Source of the DNA: Candidatus Pacearchaeota archaeon
Lineage (GTDB): Archaea > Nanobdellota > Nanobdellia > Pacearchaeales > GW2011-AR1
Assembly (NCBI GenBank): GCA_018304025.1
Contig: JAGVXA010000005.1
Coordinates: forward strand, 1-54,462
Direction: 5' to 3'
DNA length: 54,462 nucleotides
In this document: piece by piece, positions 24,380-54,462 of the stretch
How positions within the stretch are numbered: position 1 is the stretch's first letter
Layout of the letters: the number at the start of each line of letters is the position of its first letter
Notes under the pieces: generated by a model
Database searches by the model: none
What the model saw: the letters and a program-made list of their open reading frames with translations, nothing else
What the model was told of the DNA's origin: nothing
Position numbers and translations under genes: made by a program

Positions 24380-24775
24380 CAGGCAAAAGAACAAATAAAA
24401 AAAACAGCTGAAAAGCCAATAATAGTTCAATCCCCCTCAGACGAATTTTCAAGAAAAATCCTCGAATATGGAAAGTTCCAAATTCTTCTTTTGCCTAAAT
24501 CACAAAATAAAGACAGATTAAGACATTTAGACTCCGGACTAAACCACGTCCTCGCAAAAATCGCAGCAAAAAATAAAGTGGCAATTGGTATTGACTTAAA
24601 TTCCATAACAAAACTAAACAAAAAAGAAAAAGCAATCCAACTCGCAAAAATCAGGCAAAACATAAAAATCTGCAGAAAAGCCAGATGCAAAATTGAATTC
24701 ATAAATATCAAAGACAAAAAAGACGCGCAAGCCCTATTAATCTCCTTGGGCGCCAGCACGCAGCAGATTAATTAA
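24356..24775 (+). CDS. rnp3: RNase P protein component 3 (Rpp30)
   Basis: Protein subunit of archaeal RNase P, which matures tRNA 5' ends; PHP-like TIM-barrel family. The recognisable core is 'LRHLDSGLNHVLAKIAAKNKVAIGIDLNSI', then 'RQNIKICRKARCKIEFINI' and 'DAQALLISLGAS'. At 139 aa it is much shorter than the usual 200-plus residues, lacking part of the C-terminal barrel, as often in reduced archaeal genomes. Its stop codon overlaps the 3' end of the beta-helix gene on the other strand by 4 bp. Confidence 0.88.
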   Translation: MITTPNINQAKEQIKKTAEKPIIVQSPSDEFSRKILEYGKFQILLLPKSQNKDRLRHLDSGLNHVLAKIAAKNKVAIGIDLNSITKLNKKEKAIQLAKIRQNIKICRKARCKIEFINIKDKKDAQALLISLGASTQQIN

Positions 24776-26772
24776 ATAACTCTCCAATACGCTTTCGTTA
24801 TCGTGCAATTTTCCTGCGGCGGAGTTTCTTCAGAAACAATCTCAAATCCTTCTCTTATATAATCATTTATTGCTTGAGAAGTATAATCATATTGCCAATT
24901 ACCTCTTCTTTGCTGTCTAGCTAGATAAAAGAATTCTAAAAAACCATCATCAGTATTTACAGAAATACCAAGCGATTGAAGGTATGTCTTTAATGTTCTA
25001 TTGTGCCCTAACCAACCCATGGCAACCCCAGCTTCCTCTCGAGAAAAATAAACTTTATTCCCTTCGAATGTTGTATCTTGTGTTGTTCCTTCTGCACCAT
25101 ACATAGGAACATAACTATACTCAACACCATTAGCATTAACAATTGTATTATTATATATTGTATTATTAATCAACCCAGGATATTGCCACAATGAACAGTC
25201 CACAAGATCTGCTAGTTCTATTCCGTCTTCAATTTTAATTCCATAAGGAGAAGGTGTCGCATCAAATATATTGTTAAATACTTTATTCTCTCTCGTAGGA
25301 TAATGAAATAAAAGTGTTGCGCACGGCCAACCAACACGCCCCGATAAAATAAACGCTCCATTGTTTGTTGAATGTTGTGCTCCTGTAACAATATTACCCG
25401 ATACTTCAACTCCATAAGTTCCAGAACTTAGCATAACCCCCCAATCAGGCTGTCCTCTATTGTCTGATGTTCCTGTTCCAACAAATCTTTGAACAACGTT
25501 ATTCTTGAAACTGCCTGTTGGCCCATAAGAATCAGGATAGCCTCCATATCCAGCTAATGAAACATAACCTTGGTAAAAAAAGTTATTTTCAACGCGCATT
25601 CCCCCTCTGAATTGATCTCCAGAAGCACTTATCAAACTGATGCTATCAAATAAACCCGATTTCATATTTTGTGATTCTCCAGAAATGTACATATTTCTGT
25701 TATAGATATCATAGTATTGTCCATTTGCAAGCGACGGCGGCCAGCCTGTGGCTTCTGGATCTCCTCTTGAAAATCCATTCCGCATAAGAATACATTCTTC
25801 TATTCGGAGTATTGCATCTGTTTTTCCAGAATAAAAAATTCCTTGATTATGACCTCCATCCGTTCTAAAATTATCTGTAAACACACACTTTCGAAAAATT
25901 ATTTCTGAACCTGTATCTTGTATAGTTACTCCACCCGCTTCAAACCAAACATCTTCAAATAAAATATTTCTTGAGAGATTAGTTTGATACATCCAACTCA
26001 CACTTCTCGAACTGTTGCTCCTGCCATCAAAATGCAAGGATTGATACATAATATTTCTCGGATCAGGATCGCCCCAGCGTTGAATAAAATCAATAGACAA
26101 ATTACTGGCAATTTTCGGTCTTGGAAGTGATAAGTCTCCATAAGCCCCTATAATCTGCACTTCTGACTCTGATTTGCCGCCCGAAGCCACAAGACTTACA
26201 TTAATATCAAAAATATCTCCTCTCTTAAACAACCACCAATCCGGATAATTATATCTGGTACATGTTCTATATTCGCCAGGAAAACCCCCCGGCCCAATGT
26301 CTCCACATCGTTGAACAGGGTCATTGCTGTATCCTTTAGGAGCAACGTAAATCCAATTTCTAAATGTTTTTATATTTCCAGTCGGATTCATAGGGTCTGT
26401 TCCATAAGCAATTCCAAACTCATCAGCCCCATTTAACGATGAATCAACTATATTAGAACCATTCCAAAAATAGATTTCACCAGTTATATCATCACCTTCC
26501 GAGCTCAGATAAAATATTCTCGAACCAGGCTGACTTAAATTTCTTAAAGGAATTGAAGAATCGTATGGCGTCGGAGTAAAAACTGTCCATCCATCAATCA
26601 GCGTTCCTCCTCTTTCATTATCGCTAATGTTCATGCAACCAATATCTACAAGCCAATCAATCAATCCATCACCATCATTGTCAATCCCATCGTTGCATTC
26701 GGCAGCATTCACCTTTCCGGCTAACCCAATCAAAATCAAAATTCCAAGAATAATCAAAACACCCTTTTTCAT
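24772..26772 (-). CDS. Secreted right-handed beta-helix protein with C-terminal KAYW motif
   Basis: 666 aa. A signal peptide ('MKKGVLIILGILILIGLAGK', cleavage near VNA-AE) is followed by a Ca-binding-type 'CNDGIDNDGDGLIDWLVDIGC' segment. The long middle is rich in N, G, S and aromatic residues, with irregular parallel beta-helix rungs ('NNFFYQGYVSL', 'NNVVQRFVGTG', 'EVSGNIVTGAQ', 'NNTIYNNTIVNANG'). The chain ends 'ENCTITKAYWRVI'. Such folds are common in surface polysaccharide-binding proteins or lyases. No catalytic site is assigned. The end motif is shared with two other proteins of the window. Confidence 0.85.
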   Translation of the reverse strand: MKKGVLIILGILILIGLAGKVNAAECNDGIDNDGDGLIDWLVDIGCMNISDNERGGTLIDGWTVFTPTPYDSSIPLRNLSQPGSRIFYLSSEGDDITGEIYFWNGSNIVDSSLNGADEFGIAYGTDPMNPTGNIKTFRNWIYVAPKGYSNDPVQRCGDIGPGGFPGEYRTCTRYNYPDWWLFKRGDIFDINVSLVASGGKSESEVQIIGAYGDLSLPRPKIASNLSIDFIQRWGDPDPRNIMYQSLHFDGRSNSSRSVSWMYQTNLSRNILFEDVWFEAGGVTIQDTGSEIIFRKCVFTDNFRTDGGHNQGIFYSGKTDAILRIEECILMRNGFSRGDPEATGWPPSLANGQYYDIYNRNMYISGESQNMKSGLFDSISLISASGDQFRGGMRVENNFFYQGYVSLAGYGGYPDSYGPTGSFKNNVVQRFVGTGTSDNRGQPDWGVMLSSGTYGVEVSGNIVTGAQHSTNNGAFILSGRVGWPCATLLFHYPTRENKVFNNIFDATPSPYGIKIEDGIELADLVDCSLWQYPGLINNTIYNNTIVNANGVEYSYVPMYGAEGTTQDTTFEGNKVYFSREEAGVAMGWLGHNRTLKTYLQSLGISVNTDDGFLEFFYLARQQRRGNWQYDYTSQAINDYIREGFEIVSEETPPQENCTITKAYWRVI

Positions 26773-26877
26773 TTTGCTAAATATCTGCAGATATTATTAA
26801 ACCTTTCCTTCATACTATTATTAACCCCTCCCCAATTACAGCACAACCTTTTTAACCACAAAAAACCTCAATCGACG

Positions 26878-28392
26878 ATGGCGCAGGATATAAACAAGCT
26901 ATTAGAATCCCTCTCCCCTCTAGAAATAAAGATTCTCCCGTATCTAAACCTAACAATAGAAGAAATAAAACAAAAAACGCAATTGGATAATACGTCTGTC
27001 CTCCGCGCCTTAAAATTCCTGGAAAACAAATCAATTCTGAAAGTCGAAACAGCAAAAAAGAAAATAATTGAACTGGGAATAAACGGAATTTATTACAAAA
27101 AAAATCATCTCCCCGAAAGAAAACTTCTCCTCCTATTAGAACAATCAAATCACATACAAATAGAAGAAGCAAAAAAACTTTCAAAACTATCAGACAACGA
27201 ATTCAAAGTTTCTCTCGGTGTCCTGAAATCAAAAGCATTAATTGAAATAAAAAACGAAAAAGTCTCCTTAACTGCAAAAAAAGAAGAACTGACTAAAAAA
27301 ACACTTGAAGAAAAACTTATCGAAGCTCTTCCTCTCGAATTCGACTCTCTCCAACCAGAGCAGCTCTACGCGTTTCAAGTTCTCCAAAAAAGAAAAGACA
27401 TCATCCAAATAGAAGAAAAAACAATCGTCTCGTTCAAATTAACAGAATTAGGAAAACAAATCGCAGGCAGAGAAATCAAGCTGGATTTAATAGAAGAACT
27501 AACTCCTGAAATAATTAAAAATTGGAAAAAAAATAAAAAATTCCGTTCATATGATATCACTTCTCCTGTCCCGGCAATTTACGGCGGAAAAAAACATTTT
27601 GTCTCTCAGGCAGGCGAATACGCGAGGCAAATCTGGCGCGACCTCGGCTTCAAAGAAATGACAGGCCCAAAAGTTGAAACTTCTTTCTGGGTTTTCGACG
27701 CGCTCTTCACTCCCCAAGATCATCCAGCAAGAGAAATGCAAGACACCTTTTTCATCAAAAATATTCCTGGCTCTCTTCCAAAAGACAAAGCACTCGTCAA
27801 AAAAGTAAAAGAAGCGCACGAAAAAGGGTTGGCAGGAAGCAAGGGATGGCGGTACGAGTGGACAGAAGAAGAAGCCTCAAAAATTCTTTTGAGAACTCAT
27901 ACAACAGCAATATCCGCGAGAACGCTTGCAAAATTAGATAAAAAAGAACTCCCTGCAAAATTTTTCGCAATAGGACGATGCTTTAGAAATGAAACAGTCG
28001 ACTGGTCTCACGGTTTTGAATTCAATCAGACAGAAGGAATTGTCGTCGATAAAAACGCAAATTTCCGAAATCTTCTCGGTTACCTGAAAGAATTCTTCAC
28101 AAAAATGGGCTATGAAAAAATTCTTTTCCGCCCGTCATTCTTCGCCTATACAGAACCAAGTGTTGAAATCGCAGTCTGGCATCCAGAGAAAAAAGTCTGG
28201 CTCGAACTTGGTGGCGCAGGAATCTTCCGTCCCGAAGTAGTAATTCCTTTCTTCGGAGAATACATTCCAGTCCTCGCCTGGGGCCCCGGCTTCGACCGTT
28301 CAATCATGATGAACTACAACATAAATGACCTCCGGCAGGTTTACAGCAATGATATCGAAATGCTAAGAAAAATTAAACCTTGGTTAAAATAA
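26878..28392 (+). CDS. pheS: Phenylalanyl-tRNA synthetase, alpha subunit
   Basis: 504 aa, the archaeal/eukaryotic type with N-terminal winged-helix (DNA-binding-fold) domains (about residues 1-200). The class II core shows 'YARQIWRDLGFKEMTGPKVETSFWVFDALFTPQDHPAREMQDTFF', 'LLRTHTTAISARTL', 'CFRNETVDWSHGFEFNQTEGIVV' (motif 2 with Phe-binding context) and 'PVLAWGPGFDRSIMM' (motif 3). It starts a four-gene run pheS - mazG-like - small TM protein - pheT with 1-2 nt gaps. Confidence 0.97.
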   Translation: MAQDINKLLESLSPLEIKILPYLNLTIEEIKQKTQLDNTSVLRALKFLENKSILKVETAKKKIIELGINGIYYKKNHLPERKLLLLLEQSNHIQIEEAKKLSKLSDNEFKVSLGVLKSKALIEIKNEKVSLTAKKEELTKKTLEEKLIEALPLEFDSLQPEQLYAFQVLQKRKDIIQIEEKTIVSFKLTELGKQIAGREIKLDLIEELTPEIIKNWKKNKKFRSYDITSPVPAIYGGKKHFVSQAGEYARQIWRDLGFKEMTGPKVETSFWVFDALFTPQDHPAREMQDTFFIKNIPGSLPKDKALVKKVKEAHEKGLAGSKGWRYEWTEEEASKILLRTHTTAISARTLAKLDKKELPAKFFAIGRCFRNETVDWSHGFEFNQTEGIVVDKNANFRNLLGYLKEFFTKMGYEKILFRPSFFAYTEPSVEIAVWHPEKKVWLELGGAGIFRPEVVIPFFGEYIPVLAWGPGFDRSIMMNYNINDLRQVYSNDIEMLRKIKPWLK

Positions 28393-28393
28393 A

Positions 28394-28699
28394 ATGAATA
28401 TTCAACAACTACAACAACAATCGTCTGAACTCCTAGATAAAATAGATTCAAAACACCCGGATAAAAAGCACGATGCGGAAACAACTTTCATCCATCTAAT
28501 AGAAGAACTCGGAGAGGTAGCAAGACAACTGTTCAATGAAAAAATCGGAAGAGATAAAATAGACAAAGAAAATTTATCAGAAGAAATAGCAGATTGCACT
28601 ATTTTATTATCTAAATTATCTAGTAATTATAATATCAATTTAGAACAAGCAATAATTGATAAACTAACTAAATTAAAAATAAGATTTAATATAGACTAA
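28394..28699 (+). CDS. MazG-like nucleotide pyrophosphohydrolase
   Basis: 101 aa, all-alpha NTP-PPase fold. The metal site is visible as 'HLIEELGEVARQLF' (E-x2-E) and 'LSEEIADCTILLSKLS' (E-x2-D). Members hydrolyse non-canonical or surplus NTPs/dNTPs. The gene is wedged between pheS and the small TM gene with 1-nt gaps, so it must be expressed with PheRS. A functional link to tRNA charging is only a guess. Confidence 0.85.
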   Translation: MNIQQLQQQSSELLDKIDSKHPDKKHDAETTFIHLIEELGEVARQLFNEKIGRDKIDKENLSEEIADCTILLSKLSSNYNINLEQAIIDKLTKLKIRFNID

Positions 28700-28700
28700 A

Positions 28701-28961
28701 ATGGCAAAAATAAAACTATCAGATGTAATCTTTTGGCTGATAATAATCGCAATTGTAGCAATAGCCATTTGGAAATTATTTGGCTCGCCGACAGACACCT
28801 CGTCAATAATTGCTATCGCCTTGTTCGTCGCTGGCTCTGAATTAATAATCTGGAAATACGTTTTTAATCTAGAAAAGAAAACAGCAGTAAGTTTCACAAA
28901 ACTAAAATATGAAATAAATAAAAGGTTTGACACTCTTGAGAATCTAATCAAGCAAAAATAA
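28701..28961 (+). CDS. Small two-TM protein, paralogue of 22643
   Basis: 86 aa. It has 'DVIFWLIIIAIVAIAIWKLF' and 'SIIAIALFVAGSELIIWKYV' as membrane helices and a charged helical tail ('KLKYEINKRFDTLENLIKQK'). The same length and plan as the 86-aa protein after pyrH indicate a small gene family. It begins 1 nt after the MazG-like gene, and pheT begins 1 nt after its stop, an unusual membrane-protein insertion inside a PheRS operon. Confidence 0.75.
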   Translation: MAKIKLSDVIFWLIIIAIVAIAIWKLFGSPTDTSSIIAIALFVAGSELIIWKYVFNLEKKTAVSFTKLKYEINKRFDTLENLIKQK

Positions 28962-28962
28962 A

Positions 28963-30576
28963 ATGGCAAAAATAAAATTCAACAGAAAAGAATTCGAAAA
29001 AGAAATTAAGCTTACAAAAGAAATAGAAGAAAAAATAACTCTTTTCGGAACATCGCTGGAATCCCTAACTGACGAAGAAATAGAAGTCGAAATTCTCCCT
29101 AACCGCCCGGATCTTCTCTCTCTCCAGGGGTTTATCAAAGCGCTAAAAGCCTTCTTAGGAAAAGAAACAGGATTTGTAAAATACAAAGTTAATAAGCCGG
29201 AAAAAGACTACAGCATAAAAATTGATCCAGCTTTAAAAAATATCCGTCCTTGCACCGCGTGCGCAATTGTAAAAGGCATTGATTTTAACGACGCCAAAAT
29301 CAAAGTGATTATAGACCTTCAGGAAAAACTCCACGCAACAGTCGGAAGAAACAGAAAAAAACTTGCGATTGGAATTTATCCCTTGGAAAAAATCAATCTT
29401 CCAATTAGATTCGAAGCAAGAACTCCAAAAAATATAAAATTCATTCCGTTGGAAGAAACGAGAGAACTTGACGGCATGCAAATTTTGCAAAGAACTTCAA
29501 CAGGAAGAACCTATGCCCATCTGTTGGAAAATCTTGACAAATTTCCTGTATTTGTCGACGCCAAAAACAAAATTCTTTCAATGCCGCCGATTATAAACAG
29601 CGACGAAACAGGAAAAATCACAGAACAAACCAAAGACGTTTTCGTAGAATGCTCTGGCTTTGATTTTGAAACTCTCAAAAAAACTCTTAACATCATCGTA
29701 ACAACTCTCGCAGACATGGGCGGACAAATCTACCAGATGAACCTCGGCAAGATGGCAACCCCAGATTTAACCCCTGAAAAAATGAAAATCTCTCTGGAAA
29801 ACACAAACAAACTTCTGGGATTAGATCTAAAAGAATCTGATATTCAAAAACTTATTCCAAGAATGGGCTGCAATTATTCCGACGGAAAAGTAGAAATTCC
29901 TGCCTGGCGCACAGATGTTCTTCATGAAGTGGACATAATTGAAGACATTGCAATAGCATACGGCTACAACAATTTTATTCCTGAAATCCCAAAAGTCGCG
30001 ACAACCGGCGCAGCAGATATAAAAGAAAAATACAAAACAAAAATAGCAGACCTTCTCGCAGGACTCGGTTTGCTGGAAATTTCTTCTTATCATTTAATCA
30101 AGCCGTCCGAGGAAGAAGACAAGAATCTAATCGAAGTTGTCGATTCTAAAACCGAATACAAATTCCTCCGCCCCTCTCTTCTTCCGTCGTCATTGAGAAC
30201 CCTAGCAGAAAACAAAGACAACGAATACCCACAGAATCTGTTTGAAATCGGAACAGTTTTCTCAAAAAATGCCGAAGCAGAAACCGGAATCAAAGAAACA
30301 GAAAACCTAATCATTTCCCTAACGCCCGGAAATTTCACGCAGATAAAACAAATTCTAAATTATCTCACAAAAAATCTCGAAATAAATTATGAAATAGAAT
30401 CCTCTGTCCACCCAAATCTAATTGAAGGCCGCACAGCGTCTATAAAAATCAACGACAACAAAGTTGGTTATATTGGAGAGCTCCATCCTCAAACATTAAA
30501 AGAATGGAACATCAAGATGCCTTGCTCTGTTTTGGAAATTTCCTTGGAAGAAATTTTTAAGATTTTAGAGAATTAG
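28963..30576 (+). CDS. pheT: Phenylalanyl-tRNA synthetase, beta subunit
   Basis: 537 aa, the archaeal short form. The N-terminal part has 'SLTDEEIEVEILPNRPDLLSLQGFIKAL'. The B3/4 domain ('CTACAIVKGIDF', 'AYGYNNF' later in the B5 region with 'EIPAWRTDVLHEVDIIEDIAIAYG') recognises mischarged Tyr and pairs with alpha. The C-terminal part is the inactive class II-like domain ('LRPSLLPSSLRTLAENKDNEYPQNLFEIGTVF', 'GYIGELHPQTLKEWNIKMP'). It forms the (alpha-beta)2 enzyme with pheS. Its 3' end converges with a beta-helix gene (3-nt gap). Confidence 0.97.
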   Translation: MAKIKFNRKEFEKEIKLTKEIEEKITLFGTSLESLTDEEIEVEILPNRPDLLSLQGFIKALKAFLGKETGFVKYKVNKPEKDYSIKIDPALKNIRPCTACAIVKGIDFNDAKIKVIIDLQEKLHATVGRNRKKLAIGIYPLEKINLPIRFEARTPKNIKFIPLEETRELDGMQILQRTSTGRTYAHLLENLDKFPVFVDAKNKILSMPPIINSDETGKITEQTKDVFVECSGFDFETLKKTLNIIVTTLADMGGQIYQMNLGKMATPDLTPEKMKISLENTNKLLGLDLKESDIQKLIPRMGCNYSDGKVEIPAWRTDVLHEVDIIEDIAIAYGYNNFIPEIPKVATTGAADIKEKYKTKIADLLAGLGLLEISSYHLIKPSEEEDKNLIEVVDSKTEYKFLRPSLLPSSLRTLAENKDNEYPQNLFEIGTVFSKNAEAETGIKETENLIISLTPGNFTQIKQILNYLTKNLEINYEIESSVHPNLIEGRTASIKINDNKVGYIGELHPQTLKEWNIKMPCSVLEISLEEIFKILEN

Positions 30577-30579
30577 ATT

Positions 30580-32265
30580 TTACATCACTCGCCAGTATGC
30601 TTTAGTTATCGTGCAGTTCCCCAGTAAATTACATTCCTTCGGACAACCCCCTCCGCAGTCTGTTCCAGTTTCATCGCCATCCTTAAAACCGTCAGAACAA
30701 CTAATCGGGAAGGGTGGAACGCAGGGCAATGCCCCAACATATTCGTCGTTAGTCAAGTTAAAAAGATTCCTTCCGCCAGAACAAGCATCACTGTTTAAAA
30801 CCGGATAATAAGCATTGTTCAAATTAATATGATGGGGAGGATTATATTCTTGCCCCATCGGAGTTCGATTAAAACTGTATTTATCAAATTGCGATCCGCC
30901 GACAAAAAAATTGCCGCTACCCTCAAAATAATGAACATCTGTGTCATCTGCAAATCCGGAATTACTAATAATTACAATACTTTTGTTTTGATAATTAATT
31001 TGAGGACTCCAAGTCCATTCTGGATTACTAACGGTCCAAACAATATTGCCTAAATCAATTAGATTATCTCGGGTTTCGTTATCTGACCCAAACATTCCAA
31101 TAATAATGTTCTTGTCAAGTATGATTTCAGAGCCATTATAATTAGTTGCGGTTTTAATTTTTAAACCGCCATTGTATCTGAAATAATCAGTCCATCCAGG
31201 AAGACCCTTATAAAATCCAATAAATGTATTGCGACGTATTGTAATATTCTCTCCCAAACTATCAAGAGAAACAGGAACCATGTTTTGTGTATCATAAACA
31301 AGGTTTCCTTCTAAAGTCATATTGTCATAGCTTCCGTTTATGCAATTGTTTGAATAGTCATCTCTATAATAAGCTATTCCAGCAGTATTGCCGCAATCAT
31401 GAATTATATTATTTTTTATTAAAAAATTATCTATGCAACCTCTTATTGCAATACAAGACTGATGCGCACCGGTTACAGGTATCACGCCGTAAATATGGTT
31501 TCCTTCGATAATAAACAAAAAATTACTGGCGCTGCTGCCTGCCTGTATGCCTGGTCCAGTATGCCCATGAATAGAATTATTTCTAAAAATCATTCCTTCT
31601 CTTATATCTCCTCCGGTATTGATACCCCCGCCAGTATTAAAAATTTCATTATTTTCAAGGACAATATCATAAACAGGCCAAGAGCCTGCAAAATCAGATT
31701 TAACATTTATACCATACATATTTGTGCCAGTTACATTATCTTTCCTGTCTCCTTTTACAAATGAATTATAAACATGAATATGTGACGCACTGTTAAATAA
31801 GACAGATGTTAAGGCGGAGTTAGTGGAGGAATCTACTGTTATTCCATCAAATGAATAGTAAATCCCAAGTCCTTCTGCGTTGATCTCCATAATATCGAAT
31901 ATAGCAGTTAAAGGAGAAATCGCTTTCCAGTTAACCCATTTCCCGTTTCTTTCCGGAGAATTATACGTACTAAATGCACCATAATTCCCGCCAGATAATA
32001 AAAAAGTCATACTATCGTTTGTATGAGTAACGGCATAATTTTGTGCCTGGCTAAGATTAAAATCATTGCCTAAAGAACCATTGTGATTGCCTAAGCCGCT
32101 CGGTGAAACGTAAAATGTAAAAAAACAAGTGTTCGGGCAGGAGCCACCGCAGTCTGTTCCAGTTTCATCGTCATCTTGTGCGCTGTTAAAACAATCTGCC
32201 TTAACATTCCCGGCTAATCCGATCAAAATAAAAATTACAAAAAGAAATATCACCAATTTTTTCAT
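30580..32265 (-). CDS. Secreted beta-helix protein with C-terminal KAYW motif (second)
   Basis: 561 aa. The signal peptide 'MKKLVIFLFVIFILIGLAGN' is nearly the same as in the 24772 protein. Two cysteine-rich 'DETGTDCGG(S/G)CP' modules lie at the mature N-terminus and shortly before the C-terminus. Between them are parallel beta-helix rungs ('IVLENNEIFNTGGGINTGG', 'FIIEGNHIYGV', 'FLIKNNIIHDCGNTAG', 'MTLEGNLVYDTQN'). The chain ends 'GNCTITKAYWRVM'. It is probably exported and surface-bound. The ligand is unknown. Confidence 0.85.
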   Translation of the reverse strand: MKKLVIFLFVIFILIGLAGNVKADCFNSAQDDDETGTDCGGSCPNTCFFTFYVSPSGLGNHNGSLGNDFNLSQAQNYAVTHTNDSMTFLLSGGNYGAFSTYNSPERNGKWVNWKAISPLTAIFDIMEINAEGLGIYYSFDGITVDSSTNSALTSVLFNSASHIHVYNSFVKGDRKDNVTGTNMYGINVKSDFAGSWPVYDIVLENNEIFNTGGGINTGGDIREGMIFRNNSIHGHTGPGIQAGSSASNFLFIIEGNHIYGVIPVTGAHQSCIAIRGCIDNFLIKNNIIHDCGNTAGIAYYRDDYSNNCINGSYDNMTLEGNLVYDTQNMVPVSLDSLGENITIRRNTFIGFYKGLPGWTDYFRYNGGLKIKTATNYNGSEIILDKNIIIGMFGSDNETRDNLIDLGNIVWTVSNPEWTWSPQINYQNKSIVIISNSGFADDTDVHYFEGSGNFFVGGSQFDKYSFNRTPMGQEYNPPHHINLNNAYYPVLNSDACSGGRNLFNLTNDEYVGALPCVPPFPISCSDGFKDGDETGTDCGGGCPKECNLLGNCTITKAYWRVM

Positions 32266-32295
32266 CCAATTTAATATTGAAAGATATTATTAAAC

Positions 32296-32589
32296 TTATT
32301 CCTTCAGTTTAAACCCGCAAGATATGCAAAATTTCTGAGTATCATTAACACTCTTCCTGCAAGCCGGACAATGCGTCAGCGGAACAATCATCTTCCCGCC
32401 GCACTCCCCGCAGAATTTTTCATTTTCTCTCCCAATTCTTCCGCAGCCAGAACATTTCGGGGGATAAACTTTCTTTTCAATCACTGTCTTATATCCGACT
32501 TTCCCGCCGGAAACAAGCGCTGAAAACGCATCAAGAATAGAATCACCGTCGTTGTATTCACTTAAATCTCTGCAGCTGTCACCACTCAT
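32296..32589 (-). CDS. Double zinc-ribbon protein
   Basis: 97 aa from the ATG at 32589, which lies about 25 nt after an ATTTAAAAAC box; the track's start at 32643 is upstream of that promoter. The N-terminal half is acidic. The C-terminal half has two four-cysteine ribbons: 'CSGCGR...FCGECGGK' and 'CPACRK...FCISCGFK'. Such proteins are often adapters for nucleic-acid or protein complexes. No specific family is assigned. Confidence 0.75.
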   Translation of the reverse strand: MSGDSCRDLSEYNDGDSILDAFSALVSGGKVGYKTVIEKKVYPPKCSGCGRIGRENEKFCGECGGKMIVPLTHCPACRKSVNDTQKFCISCGFKLKE

Positions 32590-45014: not shown

Positions 45015-45015
45015 T

Positions 45016-46269
45016 CTAATTCGCAATTCGGCCTCTTTTTAATTCTTTCCCCCGAAACAATCGCTTCCTCAAAAATACAAACCACGCGATATTCATCACA
45101 GCCAAAACAACAATCCCTATAACCAGCACCTTAATCAGCAAGTCCCTGTCCCCAAATAATTTCTTGCTCGATATAACATAGCCAAAACCGACAATTTCAA
45201 TCATGTCGTCAGAAACTTTCAACTGCAAATCTTTCTGCGCAGATTTTTGCCCGTAGATTAAATAAACAGATGAATCATAAGTTCCCTTTTTAACTCCCCC
45301 AGTATCCCAATAGGAAACCAAAACTTTTTTCTCAAAGCCCGGAATATTTTCAGTAGGCGATTTGAATTCAGCCATCACTTCTCCTTCTTTGTTAAATACA
45401 TTCATCAAAGTATAAACTCCTTTAATTTCCTCTCCCCACTTGTTCTCAACCAGCATCTCAAACTTAGCTATCTCTCCAAGTTTAAAGTCACGAACTTCAA
45501 TCTGCTGCAAATCCAAAATCATCTCTCCAACATTAAACGACTTTTCTAATTTCAATGTCTCCCCGTCGTAAATCACCGTCGCTTTTGCCGAATAAACTCC
45601 AGCAGGAACATCTGCTTTCCAGTTATGGACAATTTCTCCGCGTTTCTCTTTGCTTGCAGAAACTTCTAAAGTATTGAAGCTGTCAACTTTTTCTCCTATT
45701 GAATTATAAATATCAACATTCGCGTGAACACTTACTAAATCAACATCCCCTCGGCTGACAACAGGAATAACAAATTGCACAATCCCTTCTTGCTCTGCGC
45801 CGGAAATATGCATTTCAGCTTCAGCATATTTCCCCGGATAGGGAACATAGACATTTAATTGTGCAATCACGCCGACAACAGCGCCAATTCCCCCCCCTTC
45901 TTTCGGAACTTCAAGCACAACAATATCAGCGCTGTGCATTCCAGGAGATAAGTCAGCAGGCATTTTAATATTGTAACTAATTTGCTTTGTCTCTTCGTCA
46001 GCCCCCATTGAAATCATATTTTCAAAAATAAAAATACTTTTGTTCAATTCGCCGGAAGCATAAACAACCAAATTCATGTCTTTCCCGTCGGTATTAATAA
46101 CATTGAAGCCAATCATCTTCTCCACTCCAGAAACAAAATCCACACTCGCCCGCGCAGGAGTTATTCCCAACGCATCTATTCTGCCAGCCAATAAAACCGT
46201 CCCAGAAAGAATTAATAAAATAAACAACAAACCTTTCATTCTTCCAAATAGTTTTTCTCTCTTATTCAT
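45016..46269 (-). CDS. Membrane-anchored Ig-like surface protein, N-terminal export signal and C-terminal TM
   Basis: 417 aa from the ATG at 46269 (GGAGGGGAAA-ATG); the track's 56-residue extension overlaps the upstream gene. A signal-like segment ('LLFILLILSGTVLLAG') precedes 'LGITPARASVDFVSGVEKMIGFNVINT', which resembles DUF916-type surface proteins. Further beta-sandwich repeats follow, then a TM ('VLVIGIVVLAVMNIAWFVFL') and a basic cytosolic tail. It is likely exposed outside and fixed in the membrane. It overlaps the next upstream gene by 8 bp. Confidence 0.75.
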   Translation of the reverse strand: MNKREKLFGRMKGLLFILLILSGTVLLAGRIDALGITPARASVDFVSGVEKMIGFNVINTDGKDMNLVVYASGELNKSIFIFENMISMGADEETKQISYNIKMPADLSPGMHSADIVVLEVPKEGGGIGAVVGVIAQLNVYVPYPGKYAEAEMHISGAEQEGIVQFVIPVVSRGDVDLVSVHANVDIYNSIGEKVDSFNTLEVSASKEKRGEIVHNWKADVPAGVYSAKATVIYDGETLKLEKSFNVGEMILDLQQIEVRDFKLGEIAKFEMLVENKWGEEIKGVYTLMNVFNKEGEVMAEFKSPTENIPGFEKKVLVSYWDTGGVKKGTYDSSVYLIYGQKSAQKDLQLKVSDDMIEIVGFGYVISSKKLFGDRDLLIKVLVIGIVVLAVMNIAWFVFLRKRLFRGKELKRGRIAN

Positions 46270-46762
46270 TTTCCCCTCCGACAAATTTGTCTCCTTTTTC
46301 CAAAGAACTTTCTTCCGGCTCCAAAACAGTCTTCCCGACAAAAGTTCCTTTGTTAAAAATTTCAACATCCAATCCGACATTCCCTGCATTGACAACTTCG
46401 TATTTTCCGTCGTCAGATTCTTGCAATTTAAGCCCAACTTCAGATTTAATCGTCAATTCCCTAATCTCGCTTTCCTCAAAACCAACAACTTTCCAATAAT
46501 ACACGCCCGGCTTCAAATTAATAACAAGATTATCTTTCGCGTAAATTTCTTCAGGAGAGCTAAATTCCAAGTTATCATCCAGCAAAATCTTGTCAGCATT
46601 TGAAAATTCAAACAAGACAGCTGTAGAAGTTGTCTCTAAATCATCTTGCGGAGCAATCACTAAAGGCGCACCATAGCCGACAAGCCAGACAACAATTATC
46701 AAGCTCAAAGCTACGACGATAAAATCAATTCTCTTCATCCATTTGCTTATTTCATCTGCCAT
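46262..46762 (-). CDS. Single-TM protein with extracytoplasmic beta domain
   Basis: 166 aa. The N-terminal TM 'IDFIVVALSLIIVVWLVGYG' is followed by a domain with beta character ('VLFEFSNADKILLDDNLEF', 'NLKPGVYYWKVVGFEESEIRELTI') and a Glu/Gly-rich end. It overlaps the giant gene by 1 bp upstream and the Ig-like gene by 8 bp downstream, so the four genes from the giant protein to signal peptidase form one operon. Function unknown; probably part of a surface assembly. Confidence 0.7.
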   Translation of the reverse strand: MADEISKWMKRIDFIVVALSLIIVVWLVGYGAPLVIAPQDDLETTSTAVLFEFSNADKILLDDNLEFSSPEEIYAKDNLVINLKPGVYYWKVVGFEESEIRELTIKSEVGLKLQESDDGKYEVVNAGNVGLDVEIFNKGTFVGKTVLEPEESSLEKGDKFVGGENE

Positions 46763-49700
46763 TATGCTCCCTCTGATAAACTTGCTGTGAAAGTAATAGT
46801 AAAACTTTTATTAGACACCAATTCTCCAGGCGACACCCAAAGTAAAATATCAACTTCGCTTCTGTTCAAAGCAGTATAATTCAAATTCGAAACGCAAGTC
46901 TGCGCCGAAGTAGACATATTCCTCCATGCAATTGAAGAACTCGCCCAAGAAAATGCCCCCTCGTGTCCAGTATAATTATCTGCCTTGAACTGGAAATACT
47001 TGCTCGCGCTCGATTCAGTTGTCCATAAAACATTAGACAAAACAGAAATGTTAATCAAACTGTTCCCCCGATTCTCGACGACAAACGGTGCATAAGAAGC
47101 GTCAGTTGTATTGACGCTTACATTTGGAATCAAAGAGCCGAAATTAATCGAGCCGTTAACCATTGTAATTGCAATTGATGAACTAATATTAATTAACCGC
47201 GACGCCCAAACCCCATAGCCAATGCTGTCATTCGCCCGAACACTCCAGTTGTAAACATTGCCGTTGTCATAAAGGCATCCCAAGTCCAAAGGCAAAGTGT
47301 AATTAGTGCCTGCCAATTTAACTCCTCTCGCGATACTATCAACACAAGTGCTTCCTCCCCCCGCAATCAGCGAAATATTAAATTCGTAGCTTATCTGATC
47401 TCCGTCAGCGTCGCTCCCTGTCCAGTTAAATGTTGGAGTTCTGTCTGTCGTCGTGGAACTCGCGTTAGGAGAGACTAAAGTCACAACAGGCCTAGAGTAA
47501 ATAGTCACATTTCTCTCTTCAGTTGAATTCAAATTCCCCGCTAAATCAATAGCATACGACTTGAATGTATGATTTCCAACTGATAAGCCAGTGAAGTTAT
47601 TGTAATATTTCGTCGCAGACGCATTATACAAAGCTAAAATCTCAGAAGAGGATAACGAACGATTGAAAACTATTACTTCGTCGATTGTTCCATTGAATTC
47701 ATGCTCATGCGCACTATACTGACATCTGCCTATATAAAAATCAGAAGCGATACCGGAAAGAACAGAATTATTTGAAGTCCCGTCTAATATGCCATTCAAA
47801 TATAACGTTTGAATCTGTGTGGAATGTTCGTAAGTAAAAGCAACATGATACCATGTTTCGGACTGCAAAGTTGTAGCGCCAGTAAGATGATTCCCCTCCA
47901 TATAAGCAACCACTTTTCTACCAGTTACATAAATCTGCCTATTACCATTATTAATAACCTCGTCCTCGGTTGTGTCGTCAACTGCTCTTTTTATCCAAGC
48001 AGAATATGCAAATGAAGAAGAATCAGTTAAACTTTGCTCGCTAATATTAACGTTAATAACATTAGCTAATCCTGAAAATTCAAACCCTCCTCCAAATTTC
48101 CCATTTGTTACAGGTCCGATTCTAGAAGAATCCACAATAACCACTGTTCCGTTGTTCCCTCTTCCACTCCAGTCATAAACTTTTGTTGAATTTTCTCCGG
48201 GCCCGTTATTATCAAGTCTCCACCACCCCACCAAAGAATCATCGAAATTAGTAACAACGTAATGCTGATTCGTATCATTAGAAGAAACATTCACAATTAT
48301 AGAAGTAGCTGTCTGATTAGAGCCAGATGCAGGCGTCTCGCCTGTGAAATTAATCGAAGGATAAAGCGTATCAACTAAAAAGTTATAGCTCGACGAAGTC
48401 CCATAATTATTCGCAGTATCGTTGCACGAAACAACAAATGTATACGAACCGTCGGCAATTGACGAATTAGTATAATTTGCTCCCGTTCCAGTTGCATTCA
48501 AAGTCATCGTCTCATTAGCCAATCCAGAAATACTCAAACCGCACCAAGAAGCATTCTCATTAATTGAAACATTAAATCCAATTGAACTGATATTGAAATT
48601 TGAATCGTTCGCAGGAAGATTTATCGTTATGATTGGAGCAGTCGTATCATTTGCATCCAAAGTTGTAAATTGCCAAATCGGAGAATTAGCAAGATTCCCA
48701 TTCCCGTCGTCAGCACTAACTCTCCACAAGTAAGTTGAAGAATAACTCAAGCCCAAAGAAGAAGTCAAGCTTAAATTCGTCCAATTTACAAAAGTGCTCG
48801 ACCCATTTGCGATGTTCGTAGAATTCCCAATAACAGAAGAACTAAACATATTTGTCGTGTTTACAAATACAGGATTTACTCTCTGTGTTGTAGTTGTTCC
48901 GTCTCCTATTCCCCCAAAACCATTATATCCCCAGCACATGGCGCTTCCGTTTGAAATTATTCCGCAGGAATGCCGTCCTCCTGCGCTTACTGAAACAAAT
49001 GTGTTTGTTGTATTCACAAATACTGGGTTTACTCTCGGTGTTGTAGTTGTTCCGTCCCCTATTTTTCCAAAGTCATTAGCCCCCCAGCACATCGCGCTTC
49101 CGTTTGCAAGCAGTCCGCAGGAATGCCAGTCTCCCGCATCTATTGAAACAAATTTGTTTGTCGTGTTTACAAATACAGGGTTTAATCTATCTGTGCCGTT
49201 TGTTCCGTCTCCTATTTGTCCATAATTATTATATCCCCAGCACATGGCGCTTCCGTTTGAAAGTAATCCGCAGGAATGCCAGTCTCCCGAATCTATTGAA
49301 ATAAATGAATTAGTTGTATTCACAAATACAGGGTTTAATCTATCTGTGCCGTTTGTTCCGTCTCCTATCTGTCCATGATTATTATATCCCCAGCACATGG
49401 CGCTTCCGTTTGAAATTATTCCGCAAGTATGTCCGCCGTATGCCGAAATCGAAACAAATGTGTTTGTTGTATTCACAAATACAGGGTTTAATTTACTTGC
49501 ACCGCTTGTTCCGTCTCCTATTTCTCCTTCAAGATTACTTCCCCAGCACATCGCGCTTCCGTTTGAAATTATTCCGCAAGTATAAATATTTCCTGCATCT
49601 ATTGAAATAAATTTATTTGTTGTGTTTACAAAGACAGGACTTCTTATTGGTGTTGTAGTTGTTCCGTCCCCTATTTGCCTAAAGTCATTGCCTCCCCAGC

Positions 49701-52700
49701 ACATCGCGCTTCCGTTTGAAATTATTCCGCAAGTATGCCATTCTCCCGCGCTTATTGAAACAAATGTATTAGTTGCATTTACATATGTAGGATTCGACGT
49801 GTTCAAATTACTATCTCCACATCCCACCTGTCCCTGGCCATTAGCTCCCCAGCACATCGCGCTTCCGTTTGCAATTATCCCGCAAGTATGCTCATAGCCT
49901 GCATCCATTGAAACAAACTTATTCCAAAAAGTAACATTCATCGCATCATTATCATTATCCGTAACACTGACATTCAAAATCGGCGTTAAAGAATTTCCCG
50001 TCGACAAATTCAAAGGAGAAATCAAACTCGGCTGATTCGGCGGAAAATTTACGTCAACGCTAAACACAACACTCCTTATGTACAAAGTCCCTCCTTGAAA
50101 TACGTAGGCTGTAAAATTATAACCTCCGTCGGCAATTGATTCATTAGTCGCATTAAAGCTCCGATTATCTATTGAAGACATTGAAATATTTGTAATACCT
50201 CCATCAAGAGTATAATTAACCGTCGCGTCTTCACTTACCGAAACATTAAAGTAAAGAGGCAATAAAGTGTAAGTTATATTCTCCGGAGAAACTATTGTTA
50301 TAGAAGGGTCAACAACATAATCAAACTCCACATCTTCTCCAACAACTAACAAATCAAACGTATCTTGGCTTCCGTTCAAGTCATTCAAATAAATTTTATA
50401 TTCTTTATCTTCGCTGACATTCTCAAATCTAGCAATTAAATCGTTTTCATCTTTCTCGTAAACTTCAACAGAAGCAACCCCAGAACTCTTCCCATAAATC
50501 GTAATATCTTTCTGAGAAGTCAAATTCTGCTCAAAGGTAACACGAAGATAATCGCCAACAGGAATCAAAGAATAATTATAATCCCGAATGCTAACCAAAG
50601 AATAAACATCCTCGACAAACGTCCTGTTGGCATCCAAATGCTCTGCCTTTATTATCAAAATAATTTCAAATGTCTGGTTGCTTAAATGCGGAACAATCCA
50701 CTCAACATAATCTAACTTCCCGTTAGAATCCAAATCATAAGCGTCAAATGCAATTTCCTGCAATCTATAATTCCTCCCCTCGCTATCAGTCCTAATAACT
50801 CCCCCATCGATTACATTTCCTGTAATAAAAGAATTTGCTGCGCCAGGGGCGAGAGTTTTGACTTCACTATTATAATTATTAACTTCGAAGTCAAGGCTCG
50901 AGTAGGGACTCGAACCTTTTTTGTTTTCTTTATCCGAAACATTTAAATATTTCGAGCTGTCTTTATTATTAAATTCCGGTGAAGGAAAGTTGTTTATTCG
51001 GCTGGGTTCATCGTTCCGTTCGAACCCTTCTTTTTTATTATTTTTTGTATATATGAAATTTATTTCTTCAAATCCTGCAGCACTCTCATTATAATCATAA
51101 TTATGCCAATAAATCTTAATCTTCCCCTCCTGCCCAACCTCAAAAATCTCATTTATCGAAGCAAAAGCCAAAACATCAGTATAATTCAGTTCATCCGGCC
51201 CGGAAATAACAACTTCCTTGCCAAAACCCGTCTCTGACTCAACAGCGACAGGCGCTTCAGTTATGTATTCAATTACATACTCTGTCGCATTATCATTCAA
51301 GCCAACTTCAATCGTTCCCTGAGCGCTTTCGTTCTCGCTGACAGTTCTGCCTGTAATTGTTCCAAACAATTCAAAAATATAATCAATCAAATTCTTATTG
51401 CTCTTCTGAACATCAATAACAACTCCTGCATTAATGCTCACAGCTGTTTCTTTTTCCTCGCCGCCTTCGATTTTTCTAACACTGATATTTTCTGCCTCGC
51501 CAGGCAATTCAACAATAACACTTTCCACAACTTCAAGTGAAACATTCGCTTTCCATTTAACCGGCTCCCCAACTTTTATCCGAGAGTGCGAAGTCAAGAC
51601 ATTAAATGCTCCGGAAGAAACTAAAACATTAAACTCATTGCTCTCGACTAAATTTTCATCCAAGTATCCAGATATCTTGCACAATCTCGCACCCCTAAAT
51701 CCTGCGTCAGGCGTCAAAGTCATCACGTCACTAGAAACAACTCCAGTAATATTACTGCAATTCAACAAATATTCTTCAGCGTTGATAAAATAGTCACTCA
51801 AATTAATTTCTGCAAAACCTCCGAAAGGAATTCTTATCATTCCAATCCCTCCTGTAAAACTTAAATTGCTCTCTGCAGCCAATTCAGCGCCTTCAACAAT
51901 AATAGTTTCAGACTCCGAAGCCAAAATCTGTCCGTCGTAAATTAAATTGACAGACAAATCACCAAGCTCAGCGCTAATGTTAAAATCAGACACGTCAATC
52001 TCTAGTTCTAATTCATAATCTCCTAAATAATTTTCTCCAAATCCTTCTTCAATCACAGAATAATCCGTAGAAACTACAGCTTCGCCGTCGGAAAGAGTTA
52101 AATCAATCTCCCCATCTTCTATTTTTTCTCCATCAACTTCCACGCTTCCCGAAACAATTTCAGCACTCTGCCCTTCAGCCAAATCGTAAACAAACTCTTT
52201 TTCCTTGCTTACAATTCCAGATACCAAAACACCTCCGCCGGCAGCAACTTCTCCTGTAATATCAGCAGCTGTTTCATCTGCGGGGCTTTCTTCAGAAAAT
52301 GTTTCTTCTTCAGCAGGTTCTTCCCCAACTTCTTCAATCGCGTCCTCCTCGTTACCATCCGCAATTTTTTCTTCCATTTCATTCTCTTCACTAGCATCTT
52401 CTTCCTCGACATCTACTTCTTCTATCACTTCGCCGTCCTCTTCAGAAACATCCTCTTCAAATTCATTCTCATCAATAATTTCTTCTTCAATAGCGCTTCC
52501 TTCTTCATCAGCAGTTTCCTCCCCGCTAATCTCGCTAATCAATAATTGAAACTCGACATCAGGATAAATTTCCCTTTTTCCAGAAACACCAAATCCTCTG
52601 CCGCTCCCATTTAATTCCAACCCTTCGGCAAAAAAATCTCCCGAACTAATGTTTTCAAAGACTAAATCACTCAATAAAATTTCCTTTCTTTGTTCATTCA

Positions 52701-53046
52701 AATCAACTTCTAAAACAGAATCACTAGGAATGAGCTCCCCAGATTTCAAATTAAGCGTCAAACTTCCCTTCAAAATATCTCCAATTTCATAAGACGGCTC
52801 GTAATCTAAAACAAGTCTTCCCTGCGGCCTGACTCCAATCGTAACTAAATAAAATAAAAATAAAACTCCAAGCAAAATCAATCCAATTTGCAGATAAATC
52901 TTAAAATTCCAGTTATTTTCCTTCTTCGGCGAAGGCAGCGACGTCCCAAGATATCTTTTTTTGACGCTGTTTCCATCGCGGTAAGACTCATAGTAATAAG
53001 GCCCATGGCGAATGCCATTCTTCCAAACATATTTCTTATAAACCAT
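46762..53046 (-). CDS. Giant surface protein with Ig-like, RCC1-propeller and LamG domains
   Basis: 2,094 aa from the ATG at 53046. Residues 1-35 form a cytosolic 'YKKYVWKNGIRHGPYYYESY' motif. A TM lies at about 50-71. An acidic Glu/Asp-rich strip (about 170-265) follows, then Ig-like domains. Seven RCC1 repeats (about 1043-1400) are followed by an Fn3-like domain ('SSTYLWRVSADDGNGN', 'SPIWQFTT'), a LamG/concanavalin domain (about 1600-1810, 'LVGWWRLDNNG', 'GTIDEVIVFNRSLSSSEILALYN') and terminal beta domains. Many N-x-S/T sites fit glycosylation. There is no C-terminal anchor, so it is held by the N-terminal TM. Confidence 0.88.
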   Translation of the reverse strand: MVYKKYVWKNGIRHGPYYYESYRDGNSVKKRYLGTSLPSPKKENNWNFKIYLQIGLILLGVLFLFYLVTIGVRPQGRLVLDYEPSYEIGDILKGSLTLNLKSGELIPSDSVLEVDLNEQRKEILLSDLVFENISSGDFFAEGLELNGSGRGFGVSGKREIYPDVEFQLLISEISGEETADEEGSAIEEEIIDENEFEEDVSEEDGEVIEEVDVEEEDASEENEMEEKIADGNEEDAIEEVGEEPAEEETFSEESPADETAADITGEVAAGGGVLVSGIVSKEKEFVYDLAEGQSAEIVSGSVEVDGEKIEDGEIDLTLSDGEAVVSTDYSVIEEGFGENYLGDYELELEIDVSDFNISAELGDLSVNLIYDGQILASESETIIVEGAELAAESNLSFTGGIGMIRIPFGGFAEINLSDYFINAEEYLLNCSNITGVVSSDVMTLTPDAGFRGARLCKISGYLDENLVESNEFNVLVSSGAFNVLTSHSRIKVGEPVKWKANVSLEVVESVIVELPGEAENISVRKIEGGEEKETAVSINAGVVIDVQKSNKNLIDYIFELFGTITGRTVSENESAQGTIEVGLNDNATEYVIEYITEAPVAVESETGFGKEVVISGPDELNYTDVLAFASINEIFEVGQEGKIKIYWHNYDYNESAAGFEEINFIYTKNNKKEGFERNDEPSRINNFPSPEFNNKDSSKYLNVSDKENKKGSSPYSSLDFEVNNYNSEVKTLAPGAANSFITGNVIDGGVIRTDSEGRNYRLQEIAFDAYDLDSNGKLDYVEWIVPHLSNQTFEIILIIKAEHLDANRTFVEDVYSLVSIRDYNYSLIPVGDYLRVTFEQNLTSQKDITIYGKSSGVASVEVYEKDENDLIARFENVSEDKEYKIYLNDLNGSQDTFDLLVVGEDVEFDYVVDPSITIVSPENITYTLLPLYFNVSVSEDATVNYTLDGGITNISMSSIDNRSFNATNESIADGGYNFTAYVFQGGTLYIRSVVFSVDVNFPPNQPSLISPLNLSTGNSLTPILNVSVTDNDNDAMNVTFWNKFVSMDAGYEHTCGIIANGSAMCWGANGQGQVGCGDSNLNTSNPTYVNATNTFVSISAGEWHTCGIISNGSAMCWGGNDFRQIGDGTTTTPIRSPVFVNTTNKFISIDAGNIYTCGIISNGSAMCWGSNLEGEIGDGTSGASKLNPVFVNTTNTFVSISAYGGHTCGIISNGSAMCWGYNNHGQIGDGTNGTDRLNPVFVNTTNSFISIDSGDWHSCGLLSNGSAMCWGYNNYGQIGDGTNGTDRLNPVFVNTTNKFVSIDAGDWHSCGLLANGSAMCWGANDFGKIGDGTTTTPRVNPVFVNTTNTFVSVSAGGRHSCGIISNGSAMCWGYNGFGGIGDGTTTTQRVNPVFVNTTNMFSSSVIGNSTNIANGSSTFVNWTNLSLTSSLGLSYSSTYLWRVSADDGNGNLANSPIWQFTTLDANDTTAPIITINLPANDSNFNISSIGFNVSINENASWCGLSISGLANETMTLNATGTGANYTNSSIADGSYTFVVSCNDTANNYGTSSSYNFLVDTLYPSINFTGETPASGSNQTATSIIVNVSSNDTNQHYVVTNFDDSLVGWWRLDNNGPGENSTKVYDWSGRGNNGTVVIVDSSRIGPVTNGKFGGGFEFSGLANVINVNISEQSLTDSSSFAYSAWIKRAVDDTTEDEVINNGNRQIYVTGRKVVAYMEGNHLTGATTLQSETWYHVAFTYEHSTQIQTLYLNGILDGTSNNSVLSGIASDFYIGRCQYSAHEHEFNGTIDEVIVFNRSLSSSEILALYNASATKYYNNFTGLSVGNHTFKSYAIDLAGNLNSTEERNVTIYSRPVVTLVSPNASSTTTDRTPTFNWTGSDADGDQISYEFNISLIAGGGSTCVDSIARGVKLAGTNYTLPLDLGCLYDNGNVYNWSVRANDSIGYGVWASRLINISSSIAITMVNGSINFGSLIPNVSVNTTDASYAPFVVENRGNSLINISVLSNVLWTTESSASKYFQFKADNYTGHEGAFSWASSSIAWRNMSTSAQTCVSNLNYTALNRSEVDILLWVSPGELVSNKSFTITFTASLSEGA
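48845..49920 (-). repeat. Seven tandem RCC1-type repeats within the giant gene
   Basis: Seven units of about 50 codons with the consensus S-x-G-x-x-(H/Y)-(T/S)-CG-(I/L)-(I/L)-x-NGSAMCWG-x-N-x-x-G-x-IGDGT. Each has two cysteines 12 residues apart. DNA identity between units is high (for example cagcacat(g/c)gcgcttccg), showing recent duplication. Seven units fit one closed beta-propeller. Confidence 0.9.
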
Positions 53047-53199
53047 GTGGAACAACCATCTTTTTTAGTTTTTTCCTAAAAAGGAAACCCTAAGGAACTC
53101 CTTATTCCCCTTTTTAATTCAGAATACAAACAACCACTCTATTTAAACATTTTTACAACCTAAAAATTGGTTGTTCTACACAACTAAAAAAAGTAATTC

Positions 53200-54462
53200 T
53201 TACGCAATTTTCCAATACGCTTTCTTTATCTCGCAATTTCCCTGCTGCCCGACGCAAGGTAATGCTCCAACATGTCCGCTGATTGAAGACATAGTGCATA
53301 CAGATAAAGGACTTACAGGACGATAATCATGCGCGGCAACATTTGCAAATTGCACTTCAGATTGCAAAGAAAAGTTTCCTAAAACGCTCCTGTTAGTATT
53401 GGGTTGTGCATAAAATCCCTTTACCAAATTATAATCCTCATAAATTATATTTGTAGTATTTTCGTAGGTTAAATAGCCAGAAATTAGATTGTTCATTAAT
53501 TGACCCTCACTCTCTAATCTCACAGCTACTGTCCCATAAACAGTATTTTGATTAAAAATAAAATTCTTAACACTCCCAAACTGCACAGGCATAAACAACG
53601 GGTTCCCATATCCTTGCGCATTGGGGTTATCAATAGTAGTAGTGTTGCCAATAGTATTATTAGTTATACTAATGTTTTGAATGTATCCAATACAATAAAT
53701 ATAATTTGACCAAACAAAAATGTTTTGACCGGTATTGTTGATAAGTTTATTATTTTTAACAATAATATTTTTTGGTTGCGGAAAATTACATTCAGGAAGA
53801 TCTGCATTAATTGTAATTCCATCGATATGCTCGCCTGTCCCGTAACGATCCTTTGCATCATGAATATTATTTCCATCAATTACGACATTATCAGAGCTTA
53901 TTATTCTCAAATTATCTCCCCAAGAATAGCCGACATCGCTTTTTTCAAGAATTATATTGGAGGAAGAACCAAAGTAAATATTAGTTCGTGCGTTTCGCAC
54001 AGTTACATTAGTTAAAGTAATATTACTCGAAAAGGAGATTAATACTGCAGTTGTATCATTCATTTCAGGAAGATGGATATTTTCAGGAAAAAATAATTCT
54101 GAATTTTTTACGATGATATTTGATACATTCATTATTGTGAAAGTTGCATTGCCAGGACCGCGATGGGCGCGAACACTCCCATTAAAGTGTATTCCATCAA
54201 AAATAAGACGCATATATTTGTGATTATCTCTAAATGAAGAAATTGAAGAATCTTGGCCCTTGTAAGTTGTCCAATATTCTCTTGACTGTAAGTTATTCGG
54301 AAAAGAACCATAATCGCCAGGAGCCAGGGATATATTAATTGTTGCGTTTGTCATAGAATTCGCAAATGAAGAACCCAATCGCAGCAAGCTGCGGGGTATC
54401 AAATAAATTCGTGAATCATTAACTGGCTCGCGTCCCTGCCTTGATTCCGGACATATTTTTTT
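53200..54462 (-). CDS. Secreted beta-helix protein with C-terminal KAYW motif (third, 5' end outside the window)
   Basis: The frame stays open to the window edge, so the 400-aa track entry is not the full protein. Parallel beta-helix rungs are clear ('IIVKNSELFFP', 'ITLTNVTVRNARTNIYFG', 'VVIDGNNIHDAKDRYG', 'IIVKNNKLINNTGQNIFVW', 'ISITNNTIGNTT'). 'IDGITINADLPECNFPQPKN' is similar to pectate-lyase/carbohydrate-binding helices. The C-terminus 'QGNCEIKKAYWKIA' shares the tag with the proteins at 24772 and 30580. The signal peptide is expected outside the window. Confidence 0.85.
   Translation of the reverse strand, partial: KKICPESRQGREPVNDSRIYLIPRSLLRLGSSFANSMTNATINISLAPGDYGSFPNNLQSREYWTTYKGQDSSISSFRDNHKYMRLIFDGIHFNGSVRAHRGPGNATFTIMNVSNIIVKNSELFFPENIHLPEMNDTTAVLISFSSNITLTNVTVRNARTNIYFGSSSNIILEKSDVGYSWGDNLRIISSDNVVIDGNNIHDAKDRYGTGEHIDGITINADLPECNFPQPKNIIVKNNKLINNTGQNIFVWSNYIYCIGYIQNISITNNTIGNTTTIDNPNAQGYGNPLFMPVQFGSVKNFIFNQNTVYGTVAVRLESEGQLMNNLISGYLTYENTTNIIYEDYNLVKGFYAQPNTNRSVLGNFSLQSEVQFANVAAHDYRPVSPLSVCTMSSISGHVGALPCVGQQGNCEIKKAYWKIA

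Follow-up and report, generated by a model that had tools for sequence, protein, structure and literature searches.

A C-terminal peptide of exported proteins in a Pacearchaeota genome as the putative donor strand of a split immunoglobulin-like domain

What does a cysteine-containing peptide of about twelve residues do at the extreme C-terminus of exported proteins that otherwise differ in length and body? The question is raised by three genes of the window, that is, the whole stretch of 54,462 nucleotides analyzed here (Candidatus Pacearchaeota archaeon, assembly GCA_018304025.1, contig JAGVXA010000005.1), which is contig C10 of a genome of 992,424 bp in 29 contigs (G000; estimated completeness 88%, contamination 1.1%). 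Their products end in a common tag with the motif C-x-[IL]-x-x-A-Y-W, or C-x-[IL]-[TK]-x-A-Y-W plus two to three residues in its fuller form. The probable answer is a split immunoglobulin-like (Ig-like) domain, to which the tag would contribute strand A in trans, thereby attaching exported enzymes to surface receptors.

A terminal tag on exported proteins

The first of the three proteins (24772-26772, minus strand, 666 residues) starts with the signal peptide MKKGVLIILGILILIGLAGKVNA (26704-26772) and terminates in ENCTITKAYWRVI followed by the stop codon, the tag proper, NCTITKAYWRVI with the stop, covering 24772-24810. The second (30580-32265, minus strand, 561 residues) has the signal peptide MKKLVIFLFVIFILIGLAGNVKA (32197-32265), ends in GNCTITKAYWRVM before the stop and carries the tag NCTITKAYWRVM with its stop at 30580-30618. 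The third (53200-54462, minus strand, at least 420 residues) extends with its 5' end beyond the contig, ends in GNCEIKKAYWKIA and bears the tag NCEIKKAYWKIA with its stop at 53200-53238. All three tags are reported by a pattern search, a profile and a position-specific scoring matrix (PSSM); signal peptides, receptor architecture and the pilin-like N-terminus described below were assigned by inspection. The three ends match those quoted in an earlier note on this DNA, which had proposed the common C-terminal tag, and the likeness of the signal peptides of the first two proteins and the location of the third N-terminus outside the window are as it had stated. Its beta-helix label is firm for the third protein (Pfam Beta_helix, 34.5 bits), but the first scores just under the cut-off (23.5 against 25.9 bits) and the second returns no Pfam match; bodies other than beta-helices also occur in the wider tagged set.

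The tag is widespread in the genome: the pattern search yields 23 real copies, a 15-residue profile 24, and a generic strand-A profile 27 over the whole genome at E<=10, with no other match. Twenty-five of the latter are C-terminal and two N-terminal, and the cysteine is invariant in all 27. Representative peptides are GNCEIKKAYWRIL and, in a divergent copy on contig C25, SCALTEAYWEI. Among the 25 C-terminal copies, the stop codon lies three codons past the tryptophan, or two in the C25 copy. Setting aside three remnants or chimeras, there are 22 full-size tagged proteins, of which the 21 with a visible N-terminus each have a signal-peptide-like start. The other two copies (...CVITKARW...) directly follow N-terminal signal anchors (C21:49656-51683 and C21:53115-55820). 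These two proteins are possible N-terminally tagged clients; in the same region (L070:4656-10820, i.e., C21:49656-55820), one of them contains TSP3 repeats and the other has no Pfam match.

Outside this genome the tag is hard to find. The generic DNA pattern C-x-hydrophobic-x-x-A-x-W-xxx-stop matches 26 times in G000 (among them 24 tags and one unrelated place) and 0-3 times per genome in 179 other genomes of the family, with almost no match for a reversed-pattern control. The specific tag profile finds nothing convincing in nine genomes of the same genus or in the rest of the 181 family genomes, save two weak matches in genome G152, which were rejected as tags, being internal strands of intact domains; no other genome of 180 in the family has a comparable set of C-terminal copies. 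Beyond the family, a scan for the exact tag in a one-genome-per-species collection of 84,980 species, from which records very near the genome of the window may be left out, returns only two unconvincing matches in Bacteroidota (L073 and L074), and none was found in viral contigs. Among open-licence papers, no report of such a tag was found.

Strand A in relatives and its absence from two putative receptors

The lead came from a consensus of a secreted Ig-like domain of DPANN archaea, which as a query matches relatives and three places in G000. Of 84 copies of the domain read in relatives, three were not evaluable (contig edge or frameshift); the 81 others, read by inspection, all have strand A in cis, and the intact domain is ordered as C-x-[LI]-[TS]-x-A-x-W, a loop, and a strand B ending in G-x-x-C. 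A PSSM built solely from 58 strands A of relatives scores the G000 tags at 17.6-26.0 bits, within the relatives' own range (5th percentile 13.6, median 21.8), and the best of the other windows reaches at most 13.4 bits among the 466,691 scanned in stretches of G000 chosen around tags; the whole-genome profile agrees. At the level of sequence, the tag cannot be told apart from strand A of an Ig-like domain that is uncatalogued and common in these relatives. The domain has no match in Pfam and none in the PDB by profile search, and no intact-domain relative was found in viral contigs. The cysteines of strand A and of the strand-B end occur together in 60 of the 81 domains and are both missing in 20, strand B alone having its cysteine in one (p 4e-18); this co-variation holds in 80/81, and the two probably form a disulfide in cis in the intact relatives.

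Where, then, is the remainder of the domain? As a separate candidate, readthrough or frameshifting beyond the stop was rejected, no remaining Ig domain being present in three frames downstream of the tags of the window. A profile that begins at strand B, and is thus unbiased on the presence of strand A, finds only three domain copies in G000, on two proteins. The larger receptor (676 residues, C6:44557-46587) has two tandem domains (C6:44764-45033 and C6:45064-45336) between an N-terminal hydrophobic segment and Cys-rich repeats, followed by a glycine-rich linker and a C-terminal hydrophobic helix with a basic tail. The smaller one (379 residues, C25:148-1287) has a single domain (C25:745-1026) and a type-IV-pilin-like N-terminus, SVKGLANILSAVLIVVIGVLAVAIAW. 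Strand A is absent from all three domains, as opposed to the relatives (Fisher p 1e-5), and the cysteine at the end of strand B (GINC or GISC) is retained in each, its usual partner being found only on the tags.

The two sets are complementary. None of the 27 strand-A copies is followed by the rest of the domain, the whole-genome profile finds no strand-A copy on either receptor, and the strand-B-onward profile finds no acceptor domain on the tagged proteins. On both sides the split falls in the A-B loop: the tags stop 2-3 residues past the tryptophan, and the receptor domains open with the last few loop residues ahead of strand B. The earlier note had also considered that the motif might be all that is left of an Ig-like domain, namely its first strand; the strand identity stands, but the remainder was not simply lost and sits on separate, putative surface proteins devoid of strand A. 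Likewise, the motif is internal, at the start of a full domain, in relatives but never in G000.

Two further observations connect tags and receptors. A gene for a tagged protein of 694 residues (C25:1298-3382) has its stop 10 bp before the start of the C25 receptor gene on the same strand, forming an operon-like pair, and its product ends in the divergent tag CALTEAYWEI (DIGAYEYQTTSCALTEAYWEI) directly before the stop. No other single observation hints as strongly at a functional link as this pairing of a divergent tag with a divergent receptor domain. In addition, a protein of a sister species (G006) has a beta-helix, choice-of-anchor-type body in cis to an anchor part that matches residues 345-662 of the C6 receptor at 46% identity. 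The sister species therefore fuses body and anchor, whereas G000 separates them.

A proposed split-domain mechanism and its rivals

If these observations are read together, exported enzyme-like proteins would bear strand A at the very C-terminal end, two of them instead at the mature N-terminus, while two surface proteins would bear strands B onward without it; after export, the tag would complete the receptor domain by beta-strand addition, its cysteine being placed for an interchain disulfide with the cysteine at the strand-B end (GINC/GISC). In Ig folds, strand A lies at an edge, so that its addition need not depend on a chaperone. Such a general plug would allow many exoenzymes to be displayed on few anchors. 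The sequences themselves show the tags, their match to strand A, the lack of that strand in the receptors, the co-variation of the two cysteines and the operon-like pair; we infer the Ig-like fold, the binding of the tag, the interchain disulfide, the surface location and the enzyme-holding purpose. The anchoring signal based on cysteine that had been suggested from the window fits in part, as the tag may dock on surface receptors; nothing points to a sortase-like processing enzyme.

Several points weigh against a split domain joined in this way. The Ig-like label rests on a sequence pattern, in a domain without Pfam or PDB match, and the split arrangement is known from one metagenome-assembled genome (88% complete). 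The three receptor domains have in common an extra cysteine (VASC or IATC) not seen in the relatives' domains read, which could pair in cis with the strand-B cysteine and leave no free thiol. As an oxidant, VKOR was not found in G000 by a search that covered VKOR alone among thiol oxidases. Finally, three receptor domains alone would have to serve at least 22 tagged proteins.

The tag might instead be a C-terminal sorting signal processed by a sortase, an archaeosortase or a PorU-like enzyme, with its cysteine or the chain end joined to a lipid or glycan and its likeness to strand A reduced to ancestry. The strictly C-terminal position on signal-peptide proteins, the invariant cysteine and the choice-of-anchor Q domain in six of 21 tagged proteins would suit this explanation, which nevertheless appears unlikely: the tag lacks a hydrophobic helix or basic tail, the motif lies 2-3 residues from the stop, leaving little to cleave, two copies are N-terminal, and the absence of exactly strand A from the only three Ig-like domains of the genome is left unexplained. 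LPXTG, PGF-CTERM/PEP-CTERM and type IX secretion (T9SS) signals resemble the tag in being C-terminal and common to unrelated exported proteins, some with a choice-of-anchor domain ahead. They differ in other respects: the G000 tag is devoid of the transmembrane helix or basic tail of the LPXTG and PGF-CTERM/PEP-CTERM signals, with the stop 2-3 residues past the tryptophan in 25/25 copies, and the known T9SS/PorSS signal is a C-terminal beta-domain of ~80 residues in Bacteroidota, as opposed to a conservation of ~10 residues in a genome whose window contains archaeal-type pheT and gltX. Together with the small genome and the style of its proteins, these two genes suggest a DPANN-like archaeon. 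No enzyme partner for the tag was identified.

Two other explanations do without an anchoring role. In an alignment anchored on the tag, pairwise DNA identity averages 0.5-1.0 at each tag codon and falls to the background of ~0.3 beyond 12 bp upstream and just past the stop. Isoleucine is encoded by ATA in 22/22 tag codons as compared with 29% in other genes, and this shared codon choice beyond normal use points to a common origin of the tags at the DNA level. Synonymous changes are nonetheless present in the tag codons while C, A, Y and W remain constant, which argues that selection acts on the tag peptide. Degeneration, in which C-terminal Ig-like domains were cut to their first strand and the receptors separately lost strand A without any functional link, would agree with the homology of the tags to strand A, the full domains of relatives and the few remnant copies (C1:6438, C24:15836, C19:24909). 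We give it little credence, since it would require 25 truncations at one point in unrelated bodies, and since the conserved tag DNA between background flanks, with its synonymous changes, indicates selection; neither the strand-B cysteine retained in 3/3 receptor domains nor the operon-like tag/receptor pair is expected from it. A mere footprint of DNA cassette shuffling, in which the tags would be no protein signal but sites of recombination or tracts of gene conversion at 3' ends, is very improbable. The biased common codons (ATA in 22/22) and mosaic bodies, whose N-terminal 130 residues are 83-95% identical with divergent remainders, indicate that pieces are copied, but the synonymous variation under constant amino acids, the invariably in-frame and terminal position of the tags, their match to the relatives' strand A and the receptors lacking it are not explained; shuffling may rather be the way in which the tag spread.

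Returning to the split domain with strand A given in trans, three known systems offer a comparison. In the cohesin-dockerin pairs of cellulosomes, many exoenzymes carry a small module by which they dock on few scaffold or anchor proteins, and the G000 tags would by analogy join many exoenzymes to few anchors; the tag, however, would be a single strand of ~12 residues from a split Ig-like domain and not a calcium-binding dockerin fold, and neither tagged nor receptor proteins have a dockerin or cohesin match in Pfam. SpyTag/SpyCatcher is an engineered split of CnaB, an Ig-like domain whose terminal strand serves as the tag and whose remainder serves as the catcher. The G000 pair would differ in being natural, with strand A at the protein end, no Lys-Asp isopeptide and a possible Cys-Cys lock; in intact domains the two cysteines co-vary (80/81), and the extra receptor cysteine may compete. 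Donor-strand complementation, in which an incomplete Ig-like domain is completed by the beta-strand of another polypeptide, has been established for chaperone-usher pili and for archaeal threads (Saci_0406), for which a covalent isopeptide lock has been proposed (PMC9715654). Two of its ingredients are seen in G000, namely an acceptor lacking one strand (3/3 domains, if the Ig-like fold predicted from sequence is correct) and the missing strand at the terminus of other polypeptides (25 C-terminal and two N-terminal copies). In pili and threads, the N-terminus of a like subunit donates the strand and a polymer results (PMC9715654), each subunit being both donor and acceptor; in G000, donors and acceptors are on separate proteins, and the donor would be the C-terminus of many unlike proteins, the acceptor an anchored receptor and the proposed lock a disulfide.

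Pursued further, the comparison leads to a natural tag-and-catcher display in a DPANN-type archaeon, with a transferable strand-A tag of ~12 residues on much of the exoenzyme repertoire, locked by disulfides to two anchored or pilus-borne catchers; the C25 operon (CALTEAYWEI) might encode a second pair, orthogonal to the first; for this wider proposal the arguments seem to us evenly balanced. If true, many different exported proteins would be displayed on an archaeal surface without an enzyme, through the division of a domain that works in cis in relatives, which suggests a route by which a domain fragment turns into a sorting signal. It bears on how archaea with tiny genomes, in which no sorting system was identified here, retain digestive enzymes, and a new tag/catcher pair of natural origin could come of it.

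Bodies of the tagged proteins, remnants and neighbouring genes

Compared all-against-all without the tag, the bodies fall into two large groups, joined partly via short common segments, and several singletons. Recent whole-gene duplication, which would have accounted for the three window copies as mere paralogues, is contradicted by the several unrelated body families and by the confinement of DNA identity to the tag. Recognized pieces are the right-handed beta-helix, PKD, choice-of-anchor Q, a GH42-like domain and an acidic double-disulfide repeat. Most tagged proteins probably act on carbohydrates or bind them. The NCBIfam choice-of-anchor Q domain, found in 6/21, ends just upstream of the tag in one positioned match (residues 546-577 out of 598 in total). 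In one group (tagged proteins of L063, L064, L065, L071 and L072), several genes agree at 83-95% in the N-terminal ~130 residues (GLTPIARWDVVPYQRIN...), and the remainder is far more divergent; these are mosaic genes in which start and tag are conserved and the core between them varies.

A few copies are incomplete. At L067:2909-3253 (C19:24909-25253), a HEPN-domain N-terminus is joined in frame to a tag-bearing tail similar to the end of the third window protein, probably as a deletion chimera. The remnants at L059:6438-6500 (C1:6438-6500) and L071:15836-15916 (C24:15836-15916), of 20 and 26 codons behind in-frame stops, are apparently the ends of decayed tagged genes. In the sister species G006, two different upstream open reading frames, both with an intact Ig-like domain, run out of frame (...ALIMLI, then stop) into the same beta-helix module start (C11:1743-1836, L236, and C12:33489-33522, L233; 210 bp, 89.5% identical), which could reflect module shuffling with out-of-frame joints, or misassembly. 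Lastly, directly downstream of the third tagged gene of the window, positions 46762-53055 encode a protein of 2097 residues that has no tag and comprises an N-terminal hydrophobic segment, RCC1-type repeats and a laminin-G-like domain.

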